This document shows positions 25,139-56,782 of a stretch of DNA of 64,000 nt, in pieces (positions within the stretch are counted from its first letter, which is position 1; every line of letters begins with the position of its first letter). The position numbers and the translations under genes were made by a program. This DNA comes from Tribonema minus. Taxonomy: Eukaryota > Sar > Xanthophyceae > Tribonematales > Tribonemataceae. The notes beneath the pieces are model-generated. The model saw nothing but the letters and a program-made list of their open reading frames with translations. It was not told the origin of the DNA and did not search any database. The stretch is taken from positions 434,001 to 498,000 of the forward strand of contig JAFCMP010000535.1 of NCBI GenBank assembly GCA_017506865.1, written 5' to 3'.

Positions 25139-25168
25139 TGCAGTGTAATGAAATTTCATTGCACTGCA
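25139..25168. repeat. Terminal palindrome, left (30 bp, one mismatched pair)
   Basis: TGCAGTGTAATGAAA followed by TTTCATTGCACTGCA. It starts exactly at the element edge. Compare the perfect version at 56,753-56,782. Confidence 0.92.
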
Positions 25169-25480
25169 CGCTACTCCCCTGGCCGTCTACTCCCGCGCCA
25201 GCTAGCCCCACGCGCAGGAGTGGCCGCGTCTACCCCCGCGAGAATTCCCGCCACCGCCTCCCCCAGCAGCAGCAGCAAGCACCGCCACCCCCCTCGAAGA
25301 AGGCTAGAGAAAGTTGTTGGTTGTAACAAGCAGGGAAGAGGGAACACAGGCACCCACCGCTGTCACCGTGAGAGGTGTAGACGCAGCTAGCACTGGTGCG
25401 CCAGCCACAGCTGCTCCTGCCGTCACAGCCAACACCGCCGCCATGCAACGACAAAGCCTGCTATTCTCTGCTGTTGTGAG
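25139..25480 (+). repeat. Left terminal inverted repeat of the PLV
   Basis: The outer 25,139-25,425 matches 56,782-56,493 in reverse complement with a few gaps (shared CGCTACTCCCCTG, CGTCTACTCCCGCGCCAGC and CGCGTCTACCCCCGCGAGAA). The inner part, 25,344-25,480, also matches a second right-hand copy at 55,783-55,915. The repeat opens with a 30-base near-perfect palindrome. Confidence 0.9.
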
Positions 25481-25521
25481 CAAATCAAAACTGACCTTGT
25501 ACCCGGGCCAGGGGCGATTTT

Positions 25522-26075
25522 GATTAATGCCTGATGTTGCTCTTTTGGCTGAACTCATGCTCTAGAGCCCATGACACAATGACAGTAGCACTTAATGATT
25601 AATGCCTGATGTTGCTCTTTTGGCTGAACTCATGCTCTAGAGGCCATGACACAATGACAGTAGCAATTAATGATTAATGCCTGATGTTGCTCTTTTGGCT
25701 GAACTCATGCTCTAGAGCCCATGACACAATGACAGTAGCAATTAATGATTAATGCCTGATGTTGCTCTTTTGGCTGAATTCATGCTCTAGAGCCCATGAC
25801 ACAATGACAGTAGCAATTAATAATTAATGCCTGATGTTGCTCTTTTGGCTGAACTCATGCTTTAGAGCCCATGACACAATGACAGTAGCAATTAATGATT
25901 AATGCCTGATGTTGCTCTTTGGCTGAACTCATGCTCTAGAGCCCATGACACAATGACAGTAGCAATTAATGATTAATGCCTGATGTTGCTCTTTTGGCTG
26001 AACTCATGCTTTAGAGCCCATGACACAATGACAGCAGGAATTAATGATTAATGCCTGTTGTTGCACTTTTGTCTT
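25522..26075 (+). repeat. 75-bp minisatellite, left subterminal array
   Basis: Seven full units start at 25,522, 25,597, 25,672, 25,747, 25,822, 25,897 and 25,971, with an eighth, partial and diverged unit from 26,046. The core is GATTAATGCCTGATGTTGC then GGCTGAACTCATGCTCTAGA. It is the reverse-complement relative of the array at 53,718-54,370, so the two arrays extend the inverted symmetry of the element. Confidence 0.95.
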
Positions 26076-26270
26076 GGATGTAATTTGACGTGGCGAAATG
26101 ATAGATGCATGCATGTGAAAAAAAACGGCGCAGTAGAGTGACACTTTTTCAGACCATTGTCTTTGTGCAAAATTGTTATTATAGGGAATGAACACCCGGT
26201 AAGAGCCCCGCAAAAAACTGGTCAGCTCTGGGGGCTCGAGCTAACTTGTAAGCTGTAAGCGAGACGACAG

Positions 26271-27410
26271 CTACTGGTCATCGTGGATGAGGGGCTTGAA
26301 CACTAGAGGGGGCACGTGAGTGGTGGTGCCATTGAAGAAGTTGGGTTGATTGGGCGGGTAGGGGGCGGGGTTGCGACGGAGGTTGACCTGCTCTTGGCGT
26401 GCTGCTGTCTGGCGCTCTTGTGTGGCTGTCGCCCTCGCCTCACGCTGGTCCACGACGTGCCTGGCCTCGTAGGCCCTGTCACGCCTGTCCTCTGCCCGCT
26501 GTCTGGCGACTCCTCTAGGAGGAGGGGCACCCAGCTGCCTCACGGAGATGAGCTGCTGTATGCTCGCGGGCAGTCTGCGGTCTACGGCTAGGGGGTCACG
26601 TGCAGGGGCTGCTGCTGCTGGTGCTGGTGCTGCTGCTGCTGCTGGCGCTGCTCTTCCACCTATGGGGATGTAATGGTCTGAGTTTGGATCGTTCATCTCC
26701 CTCACAAACTGTACCAGCCTATTCTTGGTGGGGACAACATCCTTGGGCGGTTTGTACGCCGTACTACCTATGCCGTAATCCTTCTGTTTTGACTTCTTAG
26801 CTTGGTCCCGTATGAACTGAACGAGTCTTCCCCTAGGTGCTGGTGCAGCGGGGGCTGGTGCTGCTGCTGCTGCTGCTGCGGGTGGGCCATCATTCACTAG
26901 TGCGGCAGCGCCATCCTGTATCGCCTGTTGTACGCTCGCTGGTAGGGCACGGTCAATTTCCAGAGGGTCGCGAGCGGGGGCCGGCGCAACAGGAGGCAGA
27001 GGTGGTGCTGCAGGGACAGGCTCTGGTGCGGCAGGAGCGGGCTCTGCTGCGGGCGGTGGGGCCGGTACAGGTGCAGATGGAGGTGGCACGGGTGGAGCAG
27101 GTGCTGGTGCAGGAACGGGGTTGGCCTGTCTCATAATCTCAGCAGCCCTCCTCGCTACTGCCTCGTGGTCTACATTGGGTGCGGGTACTCTAGCGGCGGC
27201 ACGTGCCGCCAGGTCATCCATAGGGAAATGAGTGGCCACTCGCTGGGCTGCATCACGCGTTATAGCCTCCACGTCTACAGCGGGGCGTGGAACGAATGGC
27301 TCATTAAGCCGCCTCAGCCTATCGTTCAGCGTCGCCTCCTGGTGAGCCATGCTAAGTTCGTCCAGCGGCGCCAGCCTACGGTCAGGTGGTGGGGGCAGCG
27401 GGGCATCCAC
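26271..27410 (-). CDS. PLV Pro/Ala-rich protein with repeated LPASxQQ module
   Basis: An open frame of 379 codons, rich in Pro and Ala. Two related modules occur: DPLEIDRALPASVQQAI and DPLAVDRRLPASIQQLI, each near a RLVQFIRD or RLVQFVRE segment, with low-complexity PAPAP linkers between. The C-terminal third is charged (RQRAEDRRDRAYEARHVVDQ) and probably helical. It follows the collagen-like frame on the same strand in the late-gene block and may be the remains of the same, now broken, structural gene. A virion or assembly role is inferred from position only; no domain is recognised. Confidence 0.5.
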   Translation of the reverse strand: MDAPLPPPPDRRLAPLDELSMAHQEATLNDRLRRLNEPFVPRPAVDVEAITRDAAQRVATHFPMDDLAARAAARVPAPNVDHEAVARRAAEIMRQANPVPAPAPAPPVPPPSAPVPAPPPAAEPAPAAPEPVPAAPPLPPVAPAPARDPLEIDRALPASVQQAIQDGAAALVNDGPPAAAAAAAPAPAAPAPRGRLVQFIRDQAKKSKQKDYGIGSTAYKPPKDVVPTKNRLVQFVREMNDPNSDHYIPIGGRAAPAAAAAPAPAAAAPARDPLAVDRRLPASIQQLISVRQLGAPPPRGVARQRAEDRRDRAYEARHVVDQREARATATQERQTAARQEQVNLRRNPAPYPPNQPNFFNGTTTHVPPLVFKPLIHDDQ

Positions 27411-27512
27411 TCCGTTTCTGCCTGGATCACCCGGCCTCCCAGGTGGACCAGCGATACTTCTACCAGCGGGACCACGTTCTCCGGGAGCACCATCATTCCC
27501 ATGTCAACCATC

Positions 27513-28145: not shown

Positions 28146-28165
28146 ACACCTACATTATTATTGAA
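28146..28165 (-). promoter_or_regulatory. Candidate late-promoter motif
   Basis: On the minus strand: AATAATGTAGGT, about 12 bases before the ATG at 28,134. Similar AT(G/A)TnGGT boxes precede the genes at 30,493, 30,934 and 36,588, and a looser AATGTGAGT precedes 32,783. Confidence 0.35.
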
Positions 28166-28964
28166 TATTAGGCAGTAGTTGCTTACGAATGAGGTCGACG
28201 AGCATAAACGAATGACGATCGAGAGTGTATAATCTGAAGAGGCGCTCGAATCCCTCGAAAGTAGTCATCCCTCCACACTCCTCGTAAAAGCTCCTAACCT
28301 CCTTGGCATCACCAGTACCAAACAGAATCAGGTGAGTACTGTTTTGGCGGAGTGCTCTAGGTATACCCGTCTTATGTGTCTGACAAAGCATCGCAATTGA
28401 CACGCCCGTGCCTTCTGCCACGTGGCGGCTTCTGAGCACAAGGTCAGGAAACGGATTCTTGTTACTTGTGCTAAAGATGGCAGAGTGCGAACAGTCATCG
28501 AGAATAAGAAGGGGGTGTGGCCTTACTGGTGTGGGGGGCTTGAAGCCACAACGCTCCAGTTTGTCCATATCGAACTGGGTGACTGTCTCCCCGTGAATGA
28601 ACTTCTTATAGGCCAGTTCCACTTCCAGGGCATCACGCCACGCCTCAGCATCGGCTTCACAGGTGGCCACCACATCCTTAAAAGCTTCATACACTGAAGG
28701 CGCTGTAATGTCCTCATACATCTTGTCGTGGTCTGGACGGAAGACCGTCTGGTACAGAACGTTGCTCTTGGCTGTTGGCGAAATAATGTACAGCTTAGTG
28801 CACGTTCCTTCGCGCCGAAGCTGCTGCACTAACAAGAGCGAGAGGTACGTTTTGCCGGCTGAAGTTTGGCCGATCACTGACAGAATGAAGGGGATACGAC
28901 TGATCCATTTGGATTCGACTGTCGGAAGGGTGGGGATGTTCGTCTTCAATCCGCGCAGGACCAT
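28158..28964 (-). CDS. PLV packaging ATPase (A32/FtsK-HerA type)
   Basis: 268 codons, near the usual length for PLV and virophage ATPases. The Walker A motif is VIGQTSAGKT near residue 32 and the Walker B is HPLLILDD near residue 150, followed by a polar sensor region (CQTHKTGIPRALRQNSTHLI) typical of the A32-like clade. These enzymes pump the genome into preformed capsids. The frame reads whole. It sits at the head of the minus-strand late block, beside the collagen-like gene and the capsid genes, as in other PLVs. Confidence 0.92.
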   Translation of the reverse strand: MVLRGLKTNIPTLPTVESKWISRIPFILSVIGQTSAGKTYLSLLLVQQLRREGTCTKLYIISPTAKSNVLYQTVFRPDHDKMYEDITAPSVYEAFKDVVATCEADAEAWRDALEVELAYKKFIHGETVTQFDMDKLERCGFKPPTPVRPHPLLILDDCSHSAIFSTSNKNPFPDLVLRSRHVAEGTGVSIAMLCQTHKTGIPRALRQNSTHLILFGTGDAKEVRSFYEECGGMTTFEGFERLFRLYTLDRHSFMLVDLIRKQLLPNIQ

Positions 28965-29436: not shown

Positions 29437-29706
29437 ATGATTCAAGTTGGACTCGTGCCTTTCGAGCTCAGTAGGATACCCTTCGATTGGACCAGTATTC
29501 CATACGAGCAGCTGCAGGAAGCGGAGGCTAAGCTCAGGGCTAGTGGGCCCCAGCAAATGGCTGAACTGAAGGTGATCACTGAACAAATGTTGGCTGATAT
29601 GCAAAGGAAGCCTAATGAGCCAGTCGACCAGCCAGTCGACCCCTGTTTCGACCCCAGCCGCCCAGCCTCTCCCCCAGTCGATCAGCGTGTACCTCAGGGC
29701 GAGTGA
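29437..29706 (+). CDS. PLV small protein upstream of the penton gene
   Basis: 89 residues beginning MIQVGLVPFELSRIPFDW, with a helical middle (LQEAEAKLRASGPQQMAELK) and a Pro/Asp-rich tail. It overlaps the start of the next gene by 92 bases in another frame. The N-terminal pattern (PFELSRIPFDWTSIPYEQL) looks like a short interaction peptide. No family recognised. Confidence 0.55.
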   Translation: MIQVGLVPFELSRIPFDWTSIPYEQLQEAEAKLRASGPQQMAELKVITEQMLADMQRKPNEPVDQPVDPCFDPSRPASPPVDQRVPQGE

Positions 29707-30445
29707 TTCAATCTGTACTTCAGTGACGTACTACAATGACTGTACGTTCACCCTCCCTCGACCGATAGCAGCCCCCGATGGGTACAGCATCAATGTCGCA
29801 GTGCAGAGCATGTCCATAGCACACACGTTCGCCGTGGTGAACACGTATACAAACACGCTGGGGATAAATGGCGTGACGTACACAATCCCTAGTGGGAATT
29901 ACTCGGTCACTACTTTGACGGCGGCCGTGCGTAGCATTCTCCCTTCCGGGTACTCGTGTTCCTATTCCGATGTGACTCTCAAGTTTACAGTAACGGGATC
30001 AGCCTCATTTGCCATATCAGGGACCGCCTTAGAGCTACTAGGTATCACGGCGGCATCAGGTAGTGCTAGCTACACTAGCGATGGCACCATTAACTTGAAG
30101 GGGACGCAGTCGATCTTTGTGCTCACGCCGCTTAGAGGCGATGCGGTGGACACCAGGACTTCCGCCACTAGCAGTAGCTGCCAGTGTGTGTTGACTAGAG
30201 TCAATTGTAACGTGGCGCCGCTAGGAGTGTTGCACGTGGAGCCTACCCATCCGACCGGCCTCACCGTGTTTGACCCCGTGCTGTCCAGCGTGCGCATTCT
30301 GCTGACCGACGAACAGCCTGAGGATAGAGCCCTATTGACTAGTATCCCCTGGGACATGACCCAGGGCCTATCGATCCAGTTCAAATTCACGGGCCGGTAC
30401 CCCCTGAAACTGGAGGTGCCCACGGCCCTAGCAGCATTCAAATAG
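29615..30445 (+). CDS. PLV penton (minor capsid) protein, single jelly-roll
   Basis: 276 codons. After a Ser/Thr/Gln-rich tail of about 25 residues, the protein is almost all beta: SISVYLRASDS, CTFTLPRPIAAPDGYSINV, TLGINGVTYTIPSGNYSVTT, and near the end VRILLTDEQPEDRALL then PWDMTQGLSIQFKF. The YxVxxxTLxxAV pattern after GNYSV and the LTDExxE segment match what I know of PLV and virophage pentons. These plug the vertices of the icosahedral shell. It is placed just upstream of the major capsid gene. The frame reads whole; the exact start is uncertain because of the overlap with the preceding gene. Confidence 0.8.
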   Translation: MSQSTSQSTPVSTPAAQPLPQSISVYLRASDSICTSVTYYNDCTFTLPRPIAAPDGYSINVAVQSMSIAHTFAVVNTYTNTLGINGVTYTIPSGNYSVTTLTAAVRSILPSGYSCSYSDVTLKFTVTGSASFAISGTALELLGITAASGSASYTSDGTINLKGTQSIFVLTPLRGDAVDTRTSATSSSCQCVLTRVNCNVAPLGVLHVEPTHPTGLTVFDPVLSSVRILLTDEQPEDRALLTSIPWDMTQGLSIQFKFTGRYPLKLEVPTALAAFK

Positions 30446-30894: not shown

Positions 30895-30895
30895 T

Positions 30896-30933: not shown

Positions 30934-32267
30934 ATGTCTGGAGCACTTCCCAAAAATTTGATGTTCCCGGCACTCGTCCAGAGTGGAGTTGCTGCTGCCT
31001 CGAAGACCAATATCATCTACCCTGTGGCCGGCGCTTCCAGCTACACGCCGGGCGGCCAGCTCGTGTTCGAAATCCCAGCGGGGGAGAAATGCTTGTGGCT
31101 TCAACCGGAGAACACTTTTCTATCTTTTAGTGTCACCGTTTCCGCGACTGTTGGCACGGGCAAGACTGCCTACTGGCATGCTTATCCTTGGGACTTCATT
31201 CGCAGTCTGGAGCTTTACGCCTCGTCAGGGAGCGTCTTGTGCGAGCAAATAACCAATTACGGATTAGTGCATAGTGTCTGCCGTGACTTGCAATCTGACA
31301 TTGCCAATGTCGAGACGTCAGATAGCCTGATGCTGGGAGCTGATGCCCTGAAGTACCGCATCCCCGCCAAGAACACCCTGGCCGCCGGATCCGCCTCCTC
31401 TAGCTTCACCTTTGCGATGCCTCTCATATCTGTAATCGGCTGTCTGAGCAGTGGTGGACAACACCTTCCTCTTCATGCGATGTCCAGTCCGCTTCGTCTT
31501 TCACTTCAGCTGAACACCGTCGCTGCTGCCATCGGTCTGTCCGGGGACGCCGCCGATGTCTCCGCTCTCACCTACACGGTGACCAACCCCGTGCTCTCCA
31601 CCTCCATGCTCACCCTCAGCTCGGAGGCCCAGACTCAGATTGATCAGATGACGGGTGGTGTGTACCAGTGGTCTGGGACTAGCTACCACACGTACCGCAC
31701 GACACACCCTGCCCAGCAGACTAGCAACACTATCAGTATTCCAGCGAGGTTCACATCCGTGCGTGCCATCATGACGGCGATCCGTCCGACCGCCCAGCTT
31801 GAGAGTTCCCTTGACACCTGTCCACCCTCCACCGTATCAAGAACTACCTGCTGACGGCACAGCATATGCTTGGTAGCCAGATGATCGACCCTCGGCCAGT
31901 TGATTGTTCCGGTACCGCCCTGGGCGAGTACCTCCAGCTGCGCAGGATCTTCTCCTCCGTCACCACGGAGACGCAGCCCACCCTCTTTGAGGTGACTGCC
32001 TTCTAGGAGCAGGCCATTCAGACTTGTGCTACTCAGGCGACCACGCAGAACAAGCTGGGCTGTTTCCTCATCGGTGCCCTCCTGCAGCCTTATGGCGCCG
32101 CGGTGCAGCTGACGCAGGGCATGAGCTCTGCTGCCACTAACTTTAGCCTGGAGCTCAAGTTCGACCCCGCCCAGGCGAGCAACATTGCTGCAGCAGCAAT
32201 AGATAGCATTGTTTCGGTGGACGCGGTCTGGAGCGTGGCTGGCGGCCAGATGACCGTGGCCTTTTGA
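30934..32267 (+). pseudogene. PLV major capsid protein, double jelly-roll (broken copy)
   Basis: The span equals about 445 codons, as expected for a PLV major capsid protein, which forms the trimeric double-jelly-roll capsomers. Visible traits: the start MSGALPKNLMFPAL, an early strand pair (PGGQLVFEIPAGEKCLWLQP), the aromatic core AYPWDFIRSLELYASSG, and SSSFTFAMPLISVIGCLSSG midway. Later sequence keeps capsid-like composition to the stop near 32,267. Neighbours (penton, amphipathic protein, ATPase) fit. This copy looks broken. Confidence 0.85.
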
Positions 32268-32351: not shown

Positions 32352-32783
32352 TTAAAAAGTTTCAATTCTCTTTCCGTTACCAATTGCCTCCAGGTGCATC
32401 TGCACATTGTGCTCCACCACGGTGGCGGCATTCATGTTGACTGCCTCACGCCAACGCAGGTCCAGCCGTGAAGGTGGCCCGTCAAAGTAGATGACGCCTT
32501 CTGCTGGCGACTTGTCGTTGCAGCTGAAACTGGCCCAAGCATCAGGAGTGTACCCCGCACTGCCGGGCAGCGTTGTACAGGTGCTAACGTAGCGAGCCAT
32601 GCCCGTGCCCCTGATCTGCAGCAGCAGCTCGTCTGCGGACGCAGCATCCGAGTTGGGATCGATGGCACGGACGGTTGCTTTGTAGTTGCCGGGAGGAAGT
32701 TGGGGGATCTGCACAGTGTAGTCAGTAGCGGTCCCCGACTGGCGGTCACGACTGCGGATCTCTAGCGTAAAGTTTCCCGACAT
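32352..32783 (-). CDS. PLV conserved-type late protein, beta-rich
   Basis: 143 residues starting MSGNFTLEIRSRDRQSGTAT, then VQIPQLPPGNYKATVRAI, an internal Cys-containing loop (VSTCTTLPGSAGYT) and a strand-rich end (VVEHNVQMHLEAIGNGKRI). The opening resembles one penton-like strand order (LEIRSRDRxSG...YTVxIPxLPxGxY), so it could be a second minor capsid or vertex protein. It is convergent with the major capsid gene. The reading frame is whole. Confidence 0.55.
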   Translation of the reverse strand: MSGNFTLEIRSRDRQSGTATDYTVQIPQLPPGNYKATVRAIDPNSDAASADELLLQIRGTGMARYVSTCTTLPGSAGYTPDAWASFSCNDKSPAEGVIYFDGPPSRLDLRWREAVNMNAATVVEHNVQMHLEAIGNGKRIETF

Positions 32784-36587: not shown

Positions 36588-36941
36588 ATGGTGGCCATAG
36601 CGACTGCGATAAGTGCCAGTGGCTGCACGTACGCCTCGGGAGTCTTCAGTATCCCGTGGACGGCTCTGAACGCAATTACTTCTGTTGATGCCACTGCCGT
36701 GGACAGTTTTGAAGCCCTAATGTATGCTCTATCCCAGGTAATTCTGGAGAAACAGACCGCCGGGACATTCAGTGGTCCCACTTGTGGAGTCGAAGTGTCC
36801 AATGTTAGCGTCAGTTCGGGAACAGTCGAGGTGACCGCCAATACGCTCTCCCAGAGAACAATTGAGAGTATGCTACTTACATGGGATATGGGCTCATCTG
36901 CAACACCTTACCTCATCCCTGGTAGCGTCGTGTCGAGGTAA
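36588..36941 (+). CDS. PLV small beta-rich protein
   Basis: 117 residues starting MVAIATAISASGCTYASGVF, then helix LYALSQVILEKQTAG-type sequence (SFEALMYALSQVILEKQT) and a strand-rich end (VEVSNVSVSSGTVEVTANTL). The composition resembles a fibre chaperone or short head domain placed after the fibre gene. No family recognised. Confidence 0.5.
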   Translation: MVAIATAISASGCTYASGVFSIPWTALNAITSVDATAVDSFEALMYALSQVILEKQTAGTFSGPTCGVEVSNVSVSSGTVEVTANTLSQRTIESMLLTWDMGSSATPYLIPGSVVSR

Positions 36942-44400: not shown

Positions 44401-47381
44401 GTGTTTACCTCTGCGTCGACTGCGCTTTCCACTGGCAACCATAGCCGTGACAGGTGCTGTCTCGGTCATTGTTGCGTGGGTGCTGTTATCACCAGCCTGC
44501 GTTACGTCTGACTCACCACGTTTCCCGGCTGGCTGGCGAGGCGACCTGGCAACGACCGGTTCCCTAAGGGAGAGTTGGTCAAACACCGTTGCCAGGTCAT
44601 TACCTTCTTCTCGGAGGGAGAGCAAGCTGAACGTGACCGTCAGGTCATGCATCTGACTCACCAGCGGTGCGCAGGAAGTCCGGCCCAGCAGGGTCTGTGT
44701 TGCTGGCGCGTCGCTGGGCGCCGGCCGCATATGCAGTCGGCGTGACGTGCGGCAGGGTCCAAGCTTGGTACCCGTCGGCCAAGCGCAAAGCACCGTGACG
44801 CGTGCCCGATTGGGGGCAAGGGCCAGTGCACGTACCCTGCGCGCGAGTGCGCCAGCCGCCCCCAGCAGGCCTTGCCAGTGTGATCCCGTCGGGTCCCTGG
44901 GGCATTCGCTAGACTGAGCGCCCGCTGCGACAGCAGCTGCGGCACTGCCAGGTGTGCTGGGCACACGATCGTTGCTTGACATCGTTGCGCCGCTATCGCT
45001 AGCACGACTTTCGCCAGGCAGCACACCCATTGTGCTGCTCCGGGTCAGTCTCGGCAGCGGCGCATCTGCCACACCGTCCAACGTAGATGCATGGGCTTGC
45101 CTGGGGTCTACCCCCAGGTGCTCGCATCCGAGGAATTTGCGTATGGGACCACATTTGCTAGCGGCGGCGAGCAGCGCGGCTGTTGGCTTCAGGCTATTCC
45201 CCCCACCAACAGCTGCACCACCCGCTGCCGCCGCGCATGTCGTTGGTCGGGTGTGTATGTCAGCAATGTGATCATGGCCTGATGCACGGTCACAGCCTGA
45301 CAGTGTGCATGCTGTCGCGGCGACCGGGCCTGCGAGGCAGTCGGCGCAGCGCCACACGTCGCACTGGTCCAGGGCCCCTAGATCACCAGATGGTGTCGTG
45401 GCGCTTGCTGCTGTGCGTCTGATGAAGAGGTTGCCGCACCCGTCGCAGACCTGCTCTAGGCCGCCGTATATTGGTCGGTGGTCTAGGAAAAGCTGAACAT
45501 GCAGTTCTGCAAATTGCTTCCCTTTCCCTGTGTGGCGCGTGCGCTGGTGTGCACATGCGTGTGCCGCTGGGCAATTCTTTCCCGGGGCCCGAGGATTTGC
45601 TCGCACTATGAACTTGTCGCACATGCGGCAGTCCAGCCCCGGGATATTGACCTTCCGGTTGGCAGCGGGTGTCTTGGCGGGCGCCAAAACTGTCATAGCG
45701 GTGATGCCGGATATTGGGTGCCCGTTGCGACTGTTACCGTCAGAGGTGACGCTGCCGCCTGACAGAGAGGCGCCGCTGCCAGCTGGCTGCAAAGACCGGG
45801 ACGTGATTCGTCTCTGGTGACCCGCCGGCCCAGGTTCGCCAACTTCCATCGGTACAGGCATGGTCACGGTGACCGGCTTTGCCAGCGCACCGCCAGACTG
45901 TGGCTCTGGACGGGTGACGCTGCCAGTGCTTTGGGCGCTGGCGCGGCGCCGACCCCGCTGGGGTGCAGCCGCCCCACGTTCGCCGCCCGGTGCAGCAGCC
46001 GCTGCGGCCGCTGGTGCTGTTGTCACCATGTCTGCAGTACATGGGGTTTCCGCTGCGGTGACCTCCATCGGCTGAGGACCGGGATGCCACTGGGGAGAGG
46101 CGCCGCTGCTAGCTGGCTGCGAAGGCCGCGACGTGATCCGTCTCTGGTGACCCGCTGGCCCACTGGTAGGTTCGCCAACTTCCATCGGTACGGGCACGGT
46201 CGTGGTGACCGCCTTTGCCAGCGCACTCAGTTTGCCAGACGGCGACTCTGGGCGGTTGATGCTGCCAATGCTTCCGAGGCGTCCCAGGGGCGGCCCGGCG
46301 CTGGCGCCGCGACGCCGACCCCGCCGGGATGCAGCTGCCCCGCGTTGGCCATCTGATGCGGCAGCGCCTGCCGGCGGTTTTGGCACCATGTCTGCCGCAC
46401 GTGGCGTTGCCGCCGCCGTTAAGTCGGAGGTAACCTTGCGACCGCATGCAGCGGCGGCTGTGACAGTCGTCCGTGGCTGTGCAACCACCGGGTTGGCCGG
46501 TGCGGGCCCCGCCGCTGGTGCGGCAGTGGCAGCCGTCACTAAAGGCGTTTTCCGCCGCGAACGTCGTTTTGGCATTGGCGTTGTCGCTACTGGTGAATCC
46601 GGCGGCAGTGTCGCCCGACGGCGTTTATTTGCCGCTGGTGGCGGTAGTACCACCAAGCTCAGTACAATCATCGCTGCTGGCGGCAGTGCCTCCCGTAAAC
46701 TCGCCGCTTGAGACTCCGAGTCACTGGCAGGCTGATGCCGCGGGCGCTTCGTCTGTGAGCATCCCCTGTCACAGTGATTAGCGGCACCTGGGCTAGACAG
46801 ATGGCGGCGGCGCTTCTTGACGTGCGCGTGGCTGCCACTGCCCTGAGGCTCGTCCGAGTCGGCTGACGACAAGTGTAGTCTGCGCATGCTTCTGCACAGC
46901 TCTGCAACCTGACTGCACACTGGCACCTCTGGCATCGGCCGCGGTCTAGAGCTCTGGGCCATCAGCTGAGGTGGTGGCGGGCCGGGTATCGGTGGCGGGT
47001 CCGGTATCGGCGGCGGGCCCGGTATCGGCGGTGGGCCCGGTATCGGCGGCGGGCCCGGTATCGGCGGGGGGCCCGGTATCGGCGGCGGGCCCGGGATCGG
47101 CGGCGGGCCCGGGATCGGCGGCGGGCCCGGGATTGGCGGCGGGCCCGGGATCGGTGGCGGCGGCGGTATCACTAGGCGTACCCAACGGCCAACACCATGG
47201 CGGCGTCTGCGGCGTGTGTCAGATTGGCGTGCAGCTTTGACCTGCCACCACCACAAGCCAGTATTCAGCCCGTGGTTGCGCTGTTCCCGTTTGCGTTTCA
47301 GAGGTGACCCCTCCCCACGTGAGGCAGGGCTGGTAAGCCAGTGGAGAGCCATAGCTTTGAAAGGCGACTTTGAGGCGCGAG

Positions 47382-47412
<31 letters not shown>

Positions 47413-47442
47413 CAGGCTCGGTCTCGAATGCGCGGCTGCCAA
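38500..47442 (-). CDS. LINE polyprotein: OTU-like protease, reverse transcriptase, RLE endonuclease
   Basis: 2,980 uninterrupted codons. The listed ATG gives an eight-Phe run from the T tract, so the real start is probably MALHWLTSPASRGEG near 47,352. In order: PPPIPG repeats (about 93-155); low-complexity basic linkers; a Cys/His-rich region (about 603-730, GLDCRMCDKF, CDGCGNLF, CADC); an OTU-like cysteine protease (about 1,110-1,325) with VGNGNCLIHTALHG and a distal NVGHFELLVA; zinc fingers (LRCPLCTLAFW; near 1,490); reverse transcriptase (about 1,950-2,330) with GGLDGLRYEHLL, LDCENAFNSVDRAAIVRG, GCQQGDPLGPLYFAVA and active site FLDDLNVL; a C-x3-C-x8-H-x4-C knuckle (CPWRC...HAISC) near 2,757; and a restriction-like endonuclease end (YRADTVIDP, KGIVLDTSV). 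No AP-endonuclease seen. It would copy its RNA at nicked chromosomal DNA. Confidence 0.9.
46975..47170 (-). repeat. 21-bp coding minisatellite (PPPIPG) in the LINE
   Basis: About nine tandem units like GGGCCCGGTATCGGCGGC code a proline-rich run PPPIPGP near the LINE protein N-terminus. Units differ at silent sites. Confidence 0.85.
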
Positions 47443-47474
47443 CCGCGAATACTCCCCTGCACAACTATACCACT
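47382..47474 (-). repeat. tRNA-like (SINE-like) segment with T26 tail in the LINE 5' region
   Basis: On the minus strand, AGTGGTATAGTTGTGCAGGG resembles an A box, CGCGG-TTGGCAG-CCGCG is a perfect anticodon-like stem with a 7-base loop, and CATTCGAGACC resembles a B box; 26 T follow (A run at 47,382-47,407 on plus). The T-arm is too short for a working tRNA. It could be a SINE head or a pol III promoter serving the LINE. Confidence 0.55.
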
Positions 47475-47690
47475 TTCAGTTCAAGATCCCGTCCTGCTCT
47501 GGTGTATCTGTTGAGGTGCTTCTCCCGCCGTCGTGAAACGAGCGGTGGTGGAACGAGTCGGTGTGCTCAAGCTCTCTGCCTCTGACCAACACAAGGCAGC
47601 TGGGCTGAATGCAATGCTGTGCAATTCGTGTCCTTGCCGCTGCAGTGTCGTGGTCCTGTCGTGTCTGTGCGTGTGCTGAATGCAGTCAGT

Positions 47691-47698
47691 CCATGTAC
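47691..47698. repeat. LINE target-site duplication, right copy (CCATGTAC)
   Basis: Identical to 38,414-38,421. Confidence 0.85.
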
Positions 47699-48083
47699 TT
47701 TGACGATCATCATTTGTCCGCAAATAGCGGCGAACTTGGGATGCCGAAATTCCCACGTAACGTTCCTTAAGGTAACTCCAGAACCTGGTCATTCCCATAC
47801 TCGAGGGCATGTTAGACCACTCCTCCTCAAGGACGTAAAACACTTCAGGCTGCGTGAGCAAAATACGGTTTTTCCACGTGTACACGTCGTGCTCTTCATC
47901 GTAATTATAGGGCCCGCCTTTCTCTAGGGGAAAACGAGCTTTCAGGTCATTTGCATCGCGAATTTTCCACATGCTGAGAAAATTCAGCTTTCGCTGGAAC
48001 TCAAGGTCTCCAGCAGTGTTCTGATGCCTGCCCTCAAGCCCATCGGCGATTTCCTTTGATGCAGCTGCTGATTCTTCCGCCAT
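47699..48083 (-). pseudogene. PLV DDE integrase, N-terminal part
   Basis: Starts MAEESAAASKEIADGLEG. The sequence continues LEFQRKLNFLSMWKIRDAND, then a helix-turn region (VFYVLEEEWSNMPSSMGMTR, FWSYLKERYVGISASQVRRY) that matches the zinc-binding/HTH head usual before the catalytic core in PLV integrases (GIsxxxVxxFL pattern). The LINE at 38,422-47,690 separates it from the catalytic part. Transcribed away from the polymerase gene. Confidence 0.75.
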
Positions 48084-48856: not shown

Positions 48857-49768
48857 GTGCTACAGGGCATATCTCAGACCTCAGTGAACCCCGAGCACAG
48901 AGGGCGCGACCTGGTGGCCATACTCCAGGCCTACAAGGAGAGGCCCATTAAGGGTGACTTCTATAGGACTGTCAAGTACCACTTCAGCAAGGGGCGGACG
49001 GAGGGACGGCTTACGGCAGAGGGAGTGACTCTACAGGGAGTGGATCGACCGATACGGCACGCCCTATCCCACGGGCGACTAAGGGATGTTGATGTGGTGA
49101 ATTGTCAGCCGACTCTGCTGTCACAGGCGCTGCAGCGATGCGGGCGTGAGTGCCCTGCCCTACTTGAATACGTGAGTGCCCGAGACTCCAAGCTTAAGGA
49201 GCTGGTGGAGCAGTACGGCCTGGAAAGAGATGACGCCAAAAACGTGTTCCTCAGAGCGATGTACGGAGGAGCATGTGTGACGAGGGACGGGCGGCGACTA
49301 GATGCGGACTTCTTGCTGCGCTTTAGCAAGGAAATGAGGGAACACATGAACTTTATTGCAGAGCAGTATCCCGAAACGTTCAAGTTATGCCAGCGGATGG
49401 GCAAGGACTATCCCGAATCGAGCTGCACGAGCATGATTGTGGGGGCCATTGAAAACGGTATTCTGCGTGTGATGGTGGAACTGGCCAAGGCACGCAAGAT
49501 GAAGATTGAAGTGCTAGCTTACGACGGCATGATGGTCAACCACATCCCCGAGGGGTTCCTGGAGGAAGTGGAACAGGCCATTGAGGAGCGCACGGGGTAT
49601 GCCGTGAAGTTGACGGAGAAGGAGATTCCGGAGTACGACCTGGAGGCTCTAAGGGCGCGGTATGTCAAATCGGAGCCGGCAGAGGAAGTGAAAGTGACTG
49701 GAAAGCGAAAGCGGAAGCGCGAGCCGATACCGCCCAAGTTGATTCCGGCAACGCCGTTGAACGGATGA
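48857..49768 (+). CDS. PLV TVpol-like DNA polymerase (family-A-like)
   Basis: 303 codons. Motifs that fit the transposon-virus polymerase found in PLVs and virophages: DVDVVNCQPTLLSQALQ (motif A-like Asp in a DxxNxxP setting), DDAKNVFLRAMYGGACV (O-helix-like motif B), and IEVLAYDGMMVNHIP (motif C-like Asp). The tail is basic (KVTGKRKRKREPIPPK). It would copy the viral genome. In related viruses TVpol and the SF3 helicase are one protein; here they are two frames (next at 49,892), which suggests damage. The start is uncertain because no promoter is recognised. Confidence 0.75.
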   Translation: MLQGISQTSVNPEHRGRDLVAILQAYKERPIKGDFYRTVKYHFSKGRTEGRLTAEGVTLQGVDRPIRHALSHGRLRDVDVVNCQPTLLSQALQRCGRECPALLEYVSARDSKLKELVEQYGLERDDAKNVFLRAMYGGACVTRDGRRLDADFLLRFSKEMREHMNFIAEQYPETFKLCQRMGKDYPESSCTSMIVGAIENGILRVMVELAKARKMKIEVLAYDGMMVNHIPEGFLEEVEQAIEERTGYAVKLTEKEIPEYDLEALRARYVKSEPAEEVKVTGKRKRKREPIPPKLIPATPLNG

Positions 49769-49891: not shown

Positions 49892-51337
49892 ATGTACCGA
49901 TACGACAGCAGCACCTGCCTGTGGCTGATTGCTGATACGGCGGACATTATGGTTTTCGACATTGCGGGTAGTGTGAGGCCTGAGGTCAGAGCCATTCTGG
50001 ATGCGCACGCCACCCGTATCGAGCACCTGGCCAAGCAATCTGCATCCGATGAGGCGCCGCCTTTGAGCAAGCAGGAGCAGGCTGAGCTGTACCTGTTTGG
50101 AAGGGCTGAGAAGGTGTGGCAGGAGCTGAGCAAGGCCTCTAAGTTGTGGGCGGTTATGCGACTGTTGTGCAACACGGTCAGGGATCAGGATTTCAAGAAG
50201 AAGCTGAATGCTGACCCTGAGGCCCTCAGCGTGCGCAACGGGGTGATCAATTTGAGAACGAAGGAGCTGAGGGCACGCACCAAGGAGGACCACATGACGT
50301 ACGCAATTGATTTCGATTACGATCCTGAGCACCCCGAAAAGCCGGAGTTGGTGGACATCATGAAGCAAATCACCTTGGCGAACATACTAGGTCGCACGGA
50401 CTACCTGGTGTATTTGCAACAGCTACTCGGCTACGGGTTGACAGCGTACGATAGGGAAGAGATCGTGGCCTTTTTGATAGGGAATGGAGCCAATGGGAAG
50501 GGCCTGATCAATCATTTCATGAAGCTGATACTGGGACCGCTTTTCTACAGCGCCGCTGCCGATCTAGTGCGGGCTAGCAAGCACGGCCGCGGCCCCGGAT
50601 CTGCGTGCTCCGATGTGATGAAGATGAAGGGGAAGCGCGTAGTATACATTGACGAGATGCCGGAGGGCCGCATCGACGAACAGCTCTTCACATCTCTGTC
50701 GGGAGGTGCGGATATTGCGGCGCGCGAGTTGCACGGGAAGCAGGAGGAGTTCCCCCCCACTCATCTTTTGATCATCAACAGCAACCACATGCCGGTGGTA
50801 AACCCGAGTCCCATGATCATTCGTCGCATCGCCGCCCTCCCCTTTGACGCCGAGTTCCGCTTGGAAGACGACGGCGATATAGAGATGCGTTACGACCCCG
50901 AGAACCCCTGTCAATTCAAGCGTGACAACTCCTTGAAGACAAGGATAAGCAACGGCTACCTGTGTGGGGCATTCCTGAGCTGGGCGGTGGATGGTGCCAG
51001 CACGTACTTGGAGGCTGGCAAGCTGCCCCCCAAACCAGAATGCTGTGCGGTGAAGTGTGACGACATCAAGATTGAGAACGACCGACTGGGCCAGTTCTTA
51101 GAAGAGACTCTCACTGTCACAATGAGGTGTATCGAGGCTGAGAGCGAGGAGTACAGTTGCGCATCGCTGCTTCTGAAGTACAATGCGTTCCGGAGGCCTC
51201 GTGCCATAATTAAGAAGCGGGATATGCAAGCTGAGATGGAGAAACGGGGTTTCCCGTATGAGAAGAGCGTGCGAGGCACGAGGGTTTGGGTATACAAGGG
51301 CATTAGGTATAACACCGAGGAATATCACGATTTTTAA
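49892..51337 (+). CDS. PLV superfamily 3 helicase (D5-like)
   Basis: 481 codons. An N-terminal D5-N-like region (DPEALSVRNGVINLRTKELR) leads to the SF3 ATPase: Walker A FLIGNGANGKGLI near residue 195, Walker B VVYIDEMPEGR near 250, and motif C HLLIINSNHMP near 300 with the following arginine pair (MIIRRIAALPF). A C-terminal winged-helix-like part follows (KRDMQAEMEKRGFPYEKSVR). It unwinds DNA for viral replication together with the polymerase just upstream. The frame reads well through to the stop. Confidence 0.9.
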   Translation: MYRYDSSTCLWLIADTADIMVFDIAGSVRPEVRAILDAHATRIEHLAKQSASDEAPPLSKQEQAELYLFGRAEKVWQELSKASKLWAVMRLLCNTVRDQDFKKKLNADPEALSVRNGVINLRTKELRARTKEDHMTYAIDFDYDPEHPEKPELVDIMKQITLANILGRTDYLVYLQQLLGYGLTAYDREEIVAFLIGNGANGKGLINHFMKLILGPLFYSAAADLVRASKHGRGPGSACSDVMKMKGKRVVYIDEMPEGRIDEQLFTSLSGGADIAARELHGKQEEFPPTHLLIINSNHMPVVNPSPMIIRRIAALPFDAEFRLEDDGDIEMRYDPENPCQFKRDNSLKTRISNGYLCGAFLSWAVDGASTYLEAGKLPPKPECCAVKCDDIKIENDRLGQFLEETLTVTMRCIEAESEEYSCASLLLKYNAFRRPRAIIKKRDMQAEMEKRGFPYEKSVRGTRVWVYKGIRYNTEEYHDF

Positions 51338-51498: not shown

Positions 51499-51651
51499 CT
51501 ACACAATGTGGTGTACCTCTTTGGACTTGCGGAGGTGATTTAGCACTCCGTGCCTGGGCTCCTTGATCCCACATTTCTTGCCGCACACGGGGCACTCCCC
51601 CGAATTGACAATGGCGTGCAGTGCATCAAGCTCGGCCCTTGTTACCGCCAT
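51499..51651 (-). pseudogene. PLV small C2H2-like zinc-finger protein remnant
   Basis: Minus-strand frame of 50 codons from ATG 51,651: MAVTRAELDALHAIV, then CPVCGKKCGIKEPRHGVLNH, a Cys-x2-Cys...His layout like a single zinc finger. Related sequence seems to continue past the frame's end towards 51,340, so the gene is probably broken. It overlaps the upstream part of the GNAT gene's region on the other strand. Confidence 0.45.
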
Positions 51652-51741
51652 TTCAGTGTGAGCTACTATGAGACGACAATATTATTTTTGGTCCGTTTAC
51701 CGCACATACACCAAAACCGCGTTTGTGCTTGGCGATCTAAA

Positions 51742-52209
51742 ATGTGCACCTCAGGTAAGACACCCATGAGTTACATCGGGGCCGAGTGCAGGTTGCACCA
51801 GCACCGTGCGGTGCGCGACCAGTTGGAGAAGTTTCACAGGAGATTTGCCCGCGATGACCGCTGGGTCGAGACCCACAGTGCTTGGTTTGATGGCACAACG
51901 CAATGCGTGGTAGCGACAGGCGATGACAAGATCGTTGGGTACATGCTGCTCACTCCTAACTCGCGTGGCAGCAGCGTCACGTGCATTTACAACACCCTGG
52001 TGCGGAGGGGCATGCGCAGGCGTGGCATTTGTAGGGCGATGCTGAAGGTGGCGAAGGAGCACTTTCCACACCTGTGGAGCATGTGCAACATTCTAACAGC
52101 CCCCGTGTGGCTGAGACTGGGGGCCACTGTCAAGCCCAGACAGGGGTGTGGTGCAGAGTACGATTTGGAGATCATTACACGCACCAGAAAGCTAAGCACA
52201 GACCTGTGA
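51742..52209 (+). CDS. PLV GNAT-family acetyltransferase-like protein
   Basis: The likely start is ATG 51,742 (MCTSGKTPMSYIGAECRL), giving 155 residues; the frame is open further upstream. The GNAT core is visible: a strand with VVATGDDKIVGYMLLTP, then CIYNTLVRRGMRRRGICRAM (the acetyl-CoA-binding RxxGxGxA-type loop and helix) and LKVAKEHFPHLWSMCNI. GNATs move an acetyl group to amines or protein N-termini; in viruses the target is usually unknown. It sits between replication genes and the recombinase-like gene. The frame looks whole. Confidence 0.65.
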   Translation: MCTSGKTPMSYIGAECRLHQHRAVRDQLEKFHRRFARDDRWVETHSAWFDGTTQCVVATGDDKIVGYMLLTPNSRGSSVTCIYNTLVRRGMRRRGICRAMLKVAKEHFPHLWSMCNILTAPVWLRLGATVKPRQGCGAEYDLEIITRTRKLSTDL

Positions 52210-52232: not shown

Positions 52233-53578
52233 TTACACAACAATGTCCACCCCCTTCTTCAGCAGCCTCATCAGGATCGCTTTCGATTCTGTGGGCAAGG
52301 CTGTGTTGTCTTTGATCAAATTCATGGCGTTACAGAACTGCTCCATCGACATACGCTCGGTGGCGGCAGAAGAGCCGCTGAACTCCCTGCGCTCCCGCGG
52401 TCCACGGCTGCGGACCACGGTGTCACGGCTGTCAGCTGTGCGCCTGCTCTGCCCGCTCTCGTCGCTGTCTGCCGCCTCGCTCGCTGCGGGTTCGCTACGG
52501 TTGGAGTCGTTCATGGTACGCTGTCTCTTTGCTGCTGGCTGCTCAGCATTGTTTTCATCGTTTACACCCTCCTCAGCAACCTCTTCCTCCATGAGCACGT
52601 CCCCATCTTCATCAAAGTGCTCATCCCCCATCTCAATCATCAAATGGTCGTAGTTGTCGTAGGCCGTGCGGATCTGAGCGTGGTGCAGGAACTCCCTGCC
52701 GTCGATAGCACCGTGCCGGGCCTTGGTCAGCTGCATCATGGCTGCATGGTGGAGGTAGCAAAGCTTGTGGGAGGTGGCCTTGATGCCGCGGGCGTTGGAG
52801 AAGGTGGCCAGCACAGGGCGGAAGTGGTTCTCATAGTCCACGCACCACTGCTCGAGCACAGGCAGCCTGGGCATGGCCTCGTTGATCTTCTCCGCCTTTT
52901 TCGAGTTGAGCTTGGGGCTCGACCACTGGGCGCGGAGCAGCTGAAACTTGTGGACGAAGGTGAGGGCAGGCACCATGATGGGCACACGCATCGCTTTGGG
53001 TGACTTGCCCTGCTTCTCCAGCCTGTCGACGATCACTCTGTGGACGCTGGTGTACTTGGGGTGGTTCAGCGCTGCATACACAGTGTTGACGTAGTGGATG
53101 ACCTCTCCGATGCGCAGGCCAGAGACGATCATGAGCGCTATGGCCAGCTCCACCATGTCGCAGGTGTCGGGCCCCTCCACTATGCCTTTGGCCCAGTTGA
53201 TGATGCTCAGCGTAACGGCCCAGGTGAACGGAACCTGCCGCAGTCTCTCTTGGCCTGATTCATTGCCGCCTCGTTGGCCCTGCGCTCTGCGTTGAGCACG
53301 GTGGCGTACCAGTGCTGGTGCAGCGGGTTGTTGGCCTCCTTGAGAGCGGTCATGGTGGTGGTGACTACGCCGGACAGGGTGCCGTCACCAAGCCCAAACT
53401 CCTCTCGGGCCCTTATCACCCACTGGTGCACCAGCTTGTTGACCTGCTCACGCGCATCAGGCTCGTTCAGCAACGCCTGGTTTAGGCCCAGGGCGTACTC
53501 CATGCAGCTGGCGGCGGCGTCTTTGATGGTCATGGCTCTGGGTGCTTTGGGTGTGGCTGTGCAGATGGGTTGTGACAT
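52233..53578 (-). pseudogene. PLV tyrosine recombinase / telomere-resolvase-like gene (broken copy)
   Basis: Minus-strand coding sequence begins MSQPICTATPKAPRAM at 53,578 and ends with GVDIVV at 52,233. Features of the tyrosine recombinase fold: MVELAIALMIVSGLRIGEVI (helix with the first catalytic Arg), a Lys-bearing hairpin (RLEKQGKSPKAMRVPIMVPA), ATSHKLCYLHHAAM (box II position), and REFLHHAQIRTAYDNYDHL (candidate His and Tyr nucleophile). The hairpin layout and HxxxxTAxxxY ending recall protelomerases (TelN/TelA). An acidic, Ser/Arg-rich tail follows. Together with the terminal palindromes, a role in resolving hairpin telomeres is attractive. The gene looks broken. Assignment rests on pattern, not alignment. 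Confidence 0.6.
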
Positions 53579-53717: not shown

Positions 53718-54370
53718 GAGGCATTTAATTTAATCATTAATTGCTGCAATCATTGTGTCATGGGCTCTAGAGTACGAGTTCAGCCAGGCAGAGCAACACC
53801 AGGCATTAATTATTAATTGCTGCTGTCATTGCATAGGGTTCTCTATAGCATGAGTTCAATCAGACAGAGCAACACCAGGCATTAATCATTAATTGCTGCT
53901 GTCATTGCATAGGGTTCTCTAGAGCATGAGTTCAGCCAGACAGAGCAACACCACTGGGCCAGGCATTAATCATTAATTGCTGCTGTCATTGCATAGGGTT
54001 CTCTAGAGCATGAGTTCAGCCAGACAGAGCAACACCAGGCATTAATCATTAATTGCCGCTGTCATTGCATAGGGTTCTCTAGAGCATGAGTTCAGTCAGA
54101 CAGAGCATCACCAGGCATTAATTATTAATTGCTGCTGTCATTGCATAGGGTTCTCTAGAGCATGAGTTCAGTCAGACAGAGCATCACCAGGCATTAATTA
54201 ATTGCTGCTGTCATTGCATAGGGTTCTCTAGAGCATGAGTTCAGTCAGACAGAGCAACACAAGGCATTAATTATTAATTTCTACTGTCATTGCATAGGGT
54301 TCTCTAGAGCATGAGTTCAGTCAGACAGAGCAACAACAACAGGCATTAATCATTTATGGCAAATGTCATT
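53718..54370 (-). repeat. 76-bp minisatellite, right subterminal array
   Basis: About eight units start near 53,801, 53,877, 53,961, 54,037, 54,113, 54,189, 54,262 and 54,341, after a diverged first unit near 53,719. Core: AGGCATTAATCATTAATTGC then TCTAGAGCATGAGTTCAG. These are the reverse complement of the left array's unit with about 20% difference. One unit carries an 8-base insertion. Confidence 0.95.
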
Positions 54371-54428
54371 GCACCAATCGGCACACAGCACAAGCTCAGT
54401 CACCAAGTGCAATCACAGGTATTGATAT

Positions 54429-55650: not shown

Positions 55651-55782
55651 CGACTTCCTCAATTCCCCCACTCGCGGCACCCCTCATATGGTCTGCACGA
55701 ATGGTTGCCACATACGTAGTGACAGCGTGGTCTTTACTTGTTCTGTGAGCTTCTGCAGCGCTGGTTTTCATTTCACACACGC

Positions 55783-55915
55783 TCTCACAACAGCAGAGAA
55801 GGGCAGGCTTTGGCGTTGCATGGCGGCGGTGTTGTCTGTGACAGCAGGAGCAGCTGCGGCGGGCGCACCAGTGCTAGCCGCGTCTACACCTCTCACTGGG
55901 ACAGCGGTGGGTGCG
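55783..55915 (-). repeat. Second, inner copy of the terminal-repeat segment (right side)
   Basis: Reverse complement of 25,344-25,480 with over 85% identity (shared GAGAGGTGTAGACGC, CACCGCCGCCATGCAACG, AAAGCCTGC). Only the right end has this extra copy, separated from the outer right repeat by about 0.6 kb that holds the SMP-like gene. Confidence 0.85.
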
Positions 55916-56087
55916 TGTGCTATCAAAAAATAGAGCCCGTGCTGTTCCCCTTTAACACCTTGCACTGTTTATGTCACAGCAGTCTCGCCGCGAATAAACT
56001 TCGCCGCAACCCCCAAACTAAAGCGCACACATCACACACCACAGTACTGTCAGTACCAACCAACACCACAACACCACCAACGCAACC

Positions 56088-56255
56088 ATGCCCAAGTCGA
56101 CGCCGATGGACTCGGCCGCCGCCTCTCGCATCCAGTCTGCGACGGCCAAGGCTGGAGATGGCGGGGTGCCCAAGGGCAGCGTCGCCAGTCGCGCCCAGAG
56201 TGCCGCCGCCAACAACACCAACAACTCCGCCGCTGGTGCCTCCAAGGGCAAGTAG
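56088..56255 (+). CDS. Small SMP-like (LEA-type) protein in the right terminal region
   Basis: A 55-residue frame with a favourable start context (CAACCATGCCC). It reads MPKSTPMDSAAASRIQSATA then AKAGDGGVPKGSVASRAQSA and a Asn/Ala/Ser/Gly/Lys tail. The pattern SRIQSxxAKxGxGxVxKGSxxSRAQSAA matches my memory of SMP (seed maturation protein) repeats, LEA-like hydrophilic proteins found also in algae and fungi. It lies between the two right-hand copies of the terminal repeat and so travels with the PLV; it may be a captured host gene. The codons look intact. Confidence 0.55.
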   Translation: MPKSTPMDSAAASRIQSATAKAGDGGVPKGSVASRAQSAAANNTNNSAAGASKGK

Positions 56256-56492
56256 GCATGCAGTGGTACTGGGGGGGGGCATCAAGGAGAGCTTGTTGGT
56301 ATAGCCTCAGAAATACGGTGTTTGCAAGGTCCGGGTACGGTGGCTACTGAAAGGGGATAAATACTACTATTTCTTTCGTTGGTTGGCGGGGTCTCGCGCT
56401 GCTTGTTGCCTGCTGCTTGTTGCATGCTGCTTGTTGTATGCTCGTAAACCGCAGGCGGCGGTGGCGATGGCAGCAGTTGGCGGCGGCTTTGG

Positions 56493-56782
56493 CATTGGCA
56501 GCAGCAGCAGCGGTGGCGGGCGCACCAGGGCTAGACACATCTACATCTCACATAGGAGACAGCGGTGGGTGCCTGTGTTCATCCCAGCTGCCTCTCACAG
56601 CAACACCTTTCTCGTGCACTCTTCGAGGGTTAGACGCATCCTCTACTGCTGCTGTGGGGGTAGGCGGCGGCGGGATTTCTCGCGGGGGTAGACGCGTCCA
56701 CTCCTACGCGTGGGGCTGGCTGGCGCGGGAGTAGACGGTCAGGGGAGTAGCGTGCAGTGTAATGAAATTTCATTACACTGCA
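56493..56782 (-). repeat. Right terminal inverted repeat of the PLV
   Basis: Reverse complement of 25,139-25,425, about 6% different over the outer 120 bases and more gapped further in. Confidence 0.9.
56753..56782. repeat. Terminal palindrome, right (30 bp, perfect)
   Basis: TGCAGTGTAATGAAA followed directly by TTTCATTACACTGCA. It ends exactly at the element edge, before GCTGG. Confidence 0.95.

Follow-up and report, generated by a model that had tools for sequence, protein, structure and literature searches.

The element and its ends

The 64,000-nucleotide stretch of Tribonema minus contig JAFCMP010000535.1 analysed here (positions 434,001 to 498,000, hereafter the window; the contig itself is labelled C532) harbors an integrated element that spans window positions 25,139-56,782. 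The element carries a gene for a telomere-resolvase-like tyrosine recombinase close to its right end and an rve-type (DDE) integrase gene further inside, and the outermost 30 bp on both sides are palindromes. By its packaging ATPase, primase-helicase, integrase, inverted repeats and target duplication it is called a polinton-like virus (PLV), and it is probably a decayed member of a PLV family that combines a telomere-resolvase-like enzyme with an rve-type integrase.

Both terminal palindromes abut a 5-bp direct repeat, GCTGG (25,134-25,138 and 56,783-56,787), exactly and without a gap. The right palindrome (56,753-56,782) is perfect and the left one (25,139-25,168) contains a single unpaired position, the eighth of 15, in full agreement with what the earlier note had reported from the sequence; the sequence at the two ends is TGCAGTGTAATGAAATTTCATT[A/G]CACTGCA. 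Within the element the terminal inverted repeats (TIRs) extend over 25,139-25,275 and 56,646-56,782. Their arms, reported as 25,128-25,275 and 56,646-56,793, are 90% complementary, or 93% over the 137 bp within the element, and no copies of this repeat were found elsewhere in the 158-Mb host genome searched. That genome has many chlorophyll a/b-binding matches, 43 of them at E<=1e-10, in keeping with an algal host.

The telomere-resolvase-like recombinase

In the window copy the recombinase gene is distributed over two different frames of the minus strand, with the catalytic part at 52,233-53,180 and the N-terminal part at 53,207-53,578, the latter sharing 34% identity over 115 amino acids with the N-terminal part of a relative on contig C212 described below. 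The earlier note had read 52,233-53,578 as one gene for a tyrosine-recombinase-like protein; the kinship holds, whereas the single open frame does not.

The only Pfam match of the window gene at E<=1 is ResT-TelK_cat (E 7e-4; 1.9e-4 for the domain). This family is matched by four of the seven pieces scanned, from four of the five elements carrying the gene, with E-values between 1.9e-4 and 0.12, and none of the seven matches Phage_integrase (PF00589) at E<=1. The reverse holds for the controls lambda Int, P2 Int and Cre, which hit Phage_integrase but not ResT-TelK_cat. In profile-profile comparison the PLV proteins score 39.3 against six phage protelomerases, and 41.2 and 45.3 once algal homologs are added, versus 29.2 against three ordinary integrases, while shuffled controls (60 each) reach at most 20.8, 22.7 and 19.7 for the protelomerase sets and 21.7 for the integrases. 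The likeness to protelomerases noticed earlier is supported at the profile level.

Tyrosine recombinases and other enzymes of the TopIB fold share the catalytic residues R-K-R-H-Y, and such a set can be read by eye from the five-element alignment: the first Arg and the Lys (EKK/EKQ) are present in all four covering rows, the second Arg in four of five rows, and His and Tyr in all five. The correspondence to the TelN motifs was likewise judged by eye, and hhalign reaches the first half only. Judged on these sequence comparisons, the recombinase is tyrosine-recombinase-like and, among the classes compared, nearest to telomere resolvases. The muzzle, stirrup and N domain of TelK were not detected by Pfam in the PLV pieces scanned, with PY54 as comparison. 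The window protein has no tblastn match in phages, its matches in PHROGs and NCBIfam are at chance level, and a PDB sequence search returned nothing meaningful.

The host genome also contains clear telomere-resolvase homologs, with 12 of 52 PF16684 matches at E<1e-16 and open frames of 297-605 amino acids. The homolog on C179 matches 38 phage records by tblastn, many of them annotated protelomerase (best E 8e-15); at this locus (C179:525001-529000, L033) the gene adjoins a 404-aa open reading frame (ORF), and at C46:637001-641000 (L034) a PF16684 homolog adjoins a UvrD-like helicase piece. A different PF16684 gene (L053, C522:1641351-1642000; 28.7 bits, above cutoff) lies within another PLV neighbourhood (L035), with a relative of the window gene at 48,857 located 2.7 kb to its left and an ATPase gene about 6 kb to its right; a weak Phage_integrase match is also listed for it, and no ends of this neighbourhood were located.

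An alternative assignment is that of a Xer- or Cre-like conservative tyrosine recombinase, which would circularise or excise the element without hairpins, with ordinary linear DNA as the substrate of the rve integrase. The weak similarity to ordinary integrases does exceed the shuffles (29.2 versus at most 21.7), and the PLV proteins display LRxGE, the usual form of this tyrosine-recombinase motif. Moreover, tyrosine recombinases occur frequently in other PLVs (PMC4642659, PMC12220804). The missing PF00589 match at E<=1 in the PLV pieces scanned, whereas L053 has a weak one, speaks against such an enzyme, and together with the symmetry of the sites described below makes this explanation rather unlikely.

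Related elements in the same genome

Homologs of the resolvase-like protein were found at four further places in the genome, on C92, C212, C531 and C154, each accompanied by further genes known from the window element; a search started from the C531 protein recovers the same five elements. A terminal palindrome is present in all five, in four at both ends and in C531 at the single end found, so that nine of ten ends are 30-bp TG...CA palindromes, the sequence of which differs between elements. The co-occurrence of gene and palindrome, which the earlier note had proposed to test, is observed in all five, and no gene-bearing relative devoid of a palindrome was met. In all five elements the resolvase-like gene lies nearest to one end among the matched genes, at a distance of 0.5-3.2 kb to the palindrome.

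Both palindromes are perfect in C92 (117,612-117,641 and 126,066-126,095, duplication GAATG) and in C154 (123,532-123,561 and 142,668-142,697, duplication agreeing at four of five bases). In C212 the left palindrome (95,497-95,526) has its innermost pair unpaired, the right one (123,016-123,045) is perfect, and no duplication is seen. The C531 palindrome (131,011-131,040) is perfect. In C154, retrotransposon sequence disrupts the resolvase-like gene. At only 8.5 kb the C92 element (117,612-126,095) is short, and the ATPase, integrase and D5 proteins of the window have no match within it at E<=1e-3; the element retains the perfect palindromes, the resolvase-like gene and an exact duplication, and is perhaps a derivative that moved in trans. 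The C92, C154 and C531 palindromes have C-rich tracts and telomere-like motifs, for example ACCCTAGCCCTAGGGTT, within about 150 bp; none was seen at the ends of the window element or of C212.

Symmetry of the terminal palindromes

In the window and the regions of the four relatives, a scan for palindromes of 24 nt or more that tolerated a single mismatch yields 17, of which 9 coincide with element ends and 8 do not. In 332,697 letters (window and loci L009-L041) ten perfect palindromes reach 26 bp or more, nine of them being ends or solo sites of the TG...CA class and one unrelated, compared to about 0.0003 perfect 30-bp palindromes expected by arithmetic; these loci were fetched for gene or pattern and are hence a biased sample for such counts. 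A perfect 44-bp palindrome at C212:143169-143212 (L020) is unrelated to the element ends, and a 32-nt palindrome with one mismatch at 20,510-20,541 of the window, outside the element and not bounded by TG...CA, was set aside.

Comparison of 13 palindromes reveals six invariant positions (TG.AGT.T), while the other nine of 15 vary with the partner base changing too. TG...CA is invariant throughout and corresponds to the terminal rule of retroviral-type integrases. The central 6 bp are fully symmetric in 10 of the 13, the centres of perfect palindromes reading GAATTC, GATATC or AAATTT, and in the other three the innermost pair is unpaired. Only four unpaired cells occur in the whole set, these three and position 8 of the window left end, and the chance of three falling on the innermost position is about 0.001. 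In the proposed folded form the innermost pair is the tip of the hairpin.

Protelomerases cleave their palindrome at two positions separated by 6 bp and fold the cut strands back as hairpins (PMC3558466), and hairpin formation is reported to be inhibited if the site is made asymmetric between the cuts (PMC11271964). As hairpin formation needs a symmetric centre, the symmetric centres support the hairpin reading. An ordinary Xer- or Cre-like recombinase does not need such a centre, yet the centres vary and remain symmetric. What ties the enzyme to the palindromic site is their co-occurrence only.

In a first shuffle test 61 of 63 inner cells were paired versus at most 48 in 20,000 shuffles. Since the palindromes had been preselected as symmetric, this result is weakened, and the test was replaced by a pattern that fixes only the outer arms and leaves the inner pairs free, a fair test of symmetry given that several palindromes had been found by looking for it. 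Genome-wide, the outer-arm pattern occurs at 23 places versus 3 in the control. Eight of these are known element ends; among the remaining 15, four (C70, C534, C76 and C532:35,974) have 6-7 of 7 inner pairs and 11 have 0-3, with 0.02 places having at least 6 inner pairs expected by chance.

The position of the unpaired cells would also suit self-priming hairpin ends of the parvovirus or poxvirus type, opened by a nickase or Holliday-junction enzyme, with the recombinase resolving concatemers. Three of the four unpaired cells lie at the hairpin tip and a D5-type primase-helicase is present. None of the 19 ORFs scanned with Pfam matches a nickase or a Holliday-junction resolvase, and a telomere resolvase accounts for the ends using a gene already present, which renders self-priming ends highly improbable.

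Genome-wide distribution and solo palindromes

A stricter pattern with at most three mismatches is found at 10 places versus 0 in the control, including C468:421,472-421,501, which is a pattern match only. A looser 10-base pattern is background, with 749 places versus 658 in the control.

Two palindromes stand alone and are flanked by exact 5-bp repeats: C70:157,457-157,486 (ATCAA) and C534:494,580-494,609 (AAAGC), both perfect and 30 bp in length. They look like excision scars in which one palindrome was left behind. A 5-bp flanking repeat is thereby present at two of four isolated palindromes, the chance odds per site being about 1 in 1,000. The palindrome at C5:355,640, among the matches listed for the looser pattern, was set aside for lack of a flanking repeat, and the palindrome at C76:221,001 probably belongs to one terminus of an element similar to that of C212. 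Excision by a Xer- or Cre-like recombinase would also leave solo palindromes with duplications.

Searching the host genome with the window ATPase gives 24 matches distributed over 22 places, and four of these places lie in the gene-bearing elements. No exact match to the palindrome pattern occurs within 50 kb of the 18 other PLV ATPase loci, the ends of which are unread; the absence applies to the TG...CA sequence class only, and some of the loci are possibly duplicates of one another (equal scores for C37/C469 and for C44/C75). For two of the 18, C57 and C146, an integrase homolog was confirmed nearby, and the 16 kb read there as a control, all interior to the element, contain no TG...CA palindrome of this class. 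One imperfect 48-nt palindrome is situated inside a repeat array at L041.

These data bear on another explanation of the palindromes, namely that they are mere end sequences recognised by the rve integrase, a situation common among TIR elements, and that the recombinase-like gene does something else. TG...CA ends and 5-bp duplications are consistent with rve chemistry, and duplications of 4-7 bp have been reported for PLVs (PMC7805220, PMC12220804). Full internal symmetry is not required for end recognition by an integrase, though, exact matches to the pattern are missing within 50 kb of the 18 other ATPase loci including the two with an integrase homolog, and solo palindromes with duplications require a reaction at the palindrome itself. 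We consider this explanation improbable.

Integrase, nested retrotransposon and further gene content

The earlier note had placed an ordinary DDE integrase next to the recombinase gene. In fact the rve gene (minus strand; Pfam rve, E 2.7e-8) lies in two pieces apart from it, the C-terminal part at 37,444-38,413 and the N-terminal part, recognized by comparison with the relatives, at 47,692-48,083, split by a 9.3-kb retrotransposon with a reverse transcriptase (RVT_1; 38,414-47,691, minus strand) that is not viral. In C531 and C212 the two parts are separated by only 54 bp; integrase homologs are present in C531, C212, C57 and C146. For other PLVs a warning has been issued about rve genes borne by retrotransposons (PMC12220804). 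Such an origin as cargo was rejected here, as only 54 bp separate the two parts in the relatives and copies of the retrotransposon at other places end where the integrase homology starts. Likewise, a giant ORF of 2,980 aa (38,500-47,442) was rejected as a viral gene, being part of the retrotransposon. Stretches of the latter recur elsewhere in the host genome at 98-100% identity, over kilobases, so it was probably active recently, and the same retrotransposon is found in or near several proviruses (window; L013, L024, L025, L030, L031, L032).

The A32-type packaging ATPase (28,158-28,964, minus strand) matches Pfam Pox_A32 with E 1.9e-5 and 24.7 bits versus a cutoff of 22.8. The D5-type primase-helicase (49,892-51,337, plus strand) is identified by Pfam D5_N (E 2.3e-11) and a PHROG DNA primase (E 5e-47), and is followed by a GNAT acetyltransferase (Pfam; 51,550-52,209, plus strand). 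A 276-aa protein (29,615-30,445, plus strand), possibly a minor capsid protein, and a 306-aa protein (30,934-31,854, plus strand) have homologs in all four relatives, and a 143-aa protein (32,352-32,783, minus strand) in three of four. The 610-aa protein encoded at 34,723-36,555 (plus strand) is a possible capsid gene product with homologs near the PLV ATPase loci C2, C290, C524 and C171; candidate ORFs for the double jelly-roll major capsid gene gave no meaningful sequence match in Pfam, PHROGs or PDB. A gene for a 117-aa protein (36,588-36,941, plus strand) adjoins the integrase in C531 and lies near it in C57 and C146, and a 303-aa protein (48,857-49,768, plus strand) is conserved in C531, C154, C212 and PLV pieces of C146 and C522. 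Tandem arrays of 75 bp (25,521-26,071, 7.4 copies) and 76 bp (53,730-54,373, 8.4 copies) near the two ends are related to each other in opposite orientation and are possibly origins or binding sites.

Among the features by which PLVs are recognized, an A32-type ATPase, an rve integrase or tyrosine recombinase, TIRs and a short duplication are present. Polintons/Mavericks proper are defined by a protein-primed DNA polymerase B (PolB), for which no Pfam match at E<=1 was obtained among the 19 ORFs scanned, shorter or spliced genes being outside that scan; the element is accordingly not counted among them.

Proposed integration and excision

From the data described above we consider it likely that this PLV family uses a resolvase to produce hairpin-ended DNA and an rve integrase to join the opened hairpins to the host genome, as the earlier note had suggested for a hairpin-ended virus integrating by DDE chemistry. 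The free genome would be linear with covalently closed hairpin ends, each formed by half a palindrome (15 bp) as one continuous strand. Replication would join the ends into full palindromes, which the resolvase would cut near the centre and reseal as hairpins. Upon integration the rve integrase would nick at the base of each hairpin, on the 3' side of the conserved CA, the freed 3' end would be joined to host DNA with a 5-bp stagger, and fill-in would copy the unfolded hairpin. Nicking after CA followed by fill-in predicts a full palindrome at each end that directly abuts the duplication, and this is the arrangement observed. The presence of a D5-type primase-helicase and the lack of a PolB match among the scanned ORFs would suit such ends, as hairpins should need no protein primer.

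For exit, the resolvase would act on both integrated palindromes and release hairpin-ended DNA, whereupon the chromosomal hairpins would rejoin or the two palindromes would recombine, leaving one palindrome between the duplications. Telomere resolvases are reported to be able to fuse hairpins and to recombine telomere junctions, activities restrained in TelA by its N-terminal domain (PMC11271964); either activity would lead to a duplication-palindrome-duplication scar. It is conceivable, and proposed here only tentatively, that the enzymes form a hairpin-in, hairpin-out cycle, in which the integrated ends are complete resolvase sites and DDE and resolvase chemistry act at one 30-bp site. The rve integrase would open and insert the hairpins, and the resolvase would later excise the element and reseal the chromosome.

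A number of observations weigh against this interpretation. Concerning the enzyme, the ResT-TelK_cat scores of the window protein (19.6 bits; 21.5 for the domain) and of the three matched pieces of the relatives (12.4-16.1 bits) are all below the curated cutoff of 27, three of seven pieces do not match this family, one of them best matching the unrelated Evf (E 0.005), and the genome-wide PF16684 search at E<=1 lists 52 places with none of the five PLV genes among them. As a consequence of the scores below cutoff and the missed genes, the protein is named telomere-resolvase-like and is not filed as a PF16684 member. Furthermore, the hhalign alignment covers the first half of the catalytic domain only, with a best probability of 71%, the ordinary-integrase profile used for comparison was built from just three sequences, the C531 protein and the clear algal resolvase of L033 show no significant similarity in BLASTP (E 1.3), and His and Tyr are spaced by 10 residues in the PLV proteins versus 9 in TelN.

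Concerning the sites, an exact 5-bp repeat is found at four of the six sites with both flanks read, C154 agreeing at four of five bases and the C212 flanks not matching. C531 shows no left palindrome within the stretch fetched, and the isolated near-palindromes C532:35,974-36,003 and C5:355,640 have no flanking repeat. In the window copy the rve integrase is not an intact neighbour of the resolvase-like gene. Moreover, the Arg of the HxxR motif is replaced by Cys in the alignment with the four relatives; the split integrase, the resolvase-like gene in two frames and this active-site exchange together make the window copy look inactive. Finally, the hairpin ends are inferred from sequence, the comparative evidence is drawn wholly from one genome, and viral contigs scanned with the resolvase-like protein (as single sequence and alignment), the ATPase, D5, the strong algal resolvase, the integrase and the 276-aa protein yielded zero relatives.

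Comparison with known systems

By profile, the nearest enzyme class comprises the protelomerases of N15, phiKO2 and PY54 (TelN, TelK and Tel) together with TelA and ResT. The targets of the phage enzymes are palindromic as well (56 bp in N15 and 50 bp in phiKO2, as annotated), and in N15 and phiARM81ld a replication protein or primase gene is located near the protelomerase gene, comparable to D5 in the PLV. These systems differ in being bacterial, in having one palindrome per circular form and in the far divergence of the PLV proteins.

The nearest eukaryotic precedent is provided by the phaeoviruses (EsV-1, FsV-158, Ectocarpus EVEc), which are likewise integrating double-stranded DNA viruses of algae encoding a telomere resolvase, and for which an N15-like palindromic site with fold-back reads is described (PMC13236599). 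In contrast to the PLVs, whose palindromes are the element termini, phaeoviruses are giant viruses with a single internal telRL site, N15-like in EVEc, and a distinct tyrosine recombinase, working via a circular form, is credited with their integration and excision (PMC13236599), whereas the PLV integrase is of the rve type.

With PLVs, Polintons and Mavericks the element shares the A32 ATPase, rve integrase, D5-type primase-helicase, TIRs and short duplication; Polintons use protein-primed PolB, which the scanned ORFs of the window element lack. Published PLVs encode an rve integrase or a tyrosine recombinase (PMC4642659, PMC10120064, PMC7805220, PMC10675990, PMC12220804), and the available parts of the PLV descriptions compared contain neither telomere resolvases nor palindromic ends. 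In line with the earlier note, which knew of no such pairing in PLVs, the open-access literature searched, a scope that leaves out most subscription papers, holds no report of a polinton or PLV paired with a protelomerase or telomere resolvase.

If the proposed mechanism is true, telomere resolvases would extend from phages, a few bacteria and the giant phaeoviruses to polinton-like viruses, and this would be the first case, within the literature searched, of DDE integration and telomere resolution sharing one terminal site. Solo palindromes would then constitute a readable genomic record of excision. Self-encoded hairpin telomeres, as proposed for this family, would be one answer, open to testing, to the question of how small eukaryotic DNA viruses replicate and guard their ends when they have no protein-primed polymerase.

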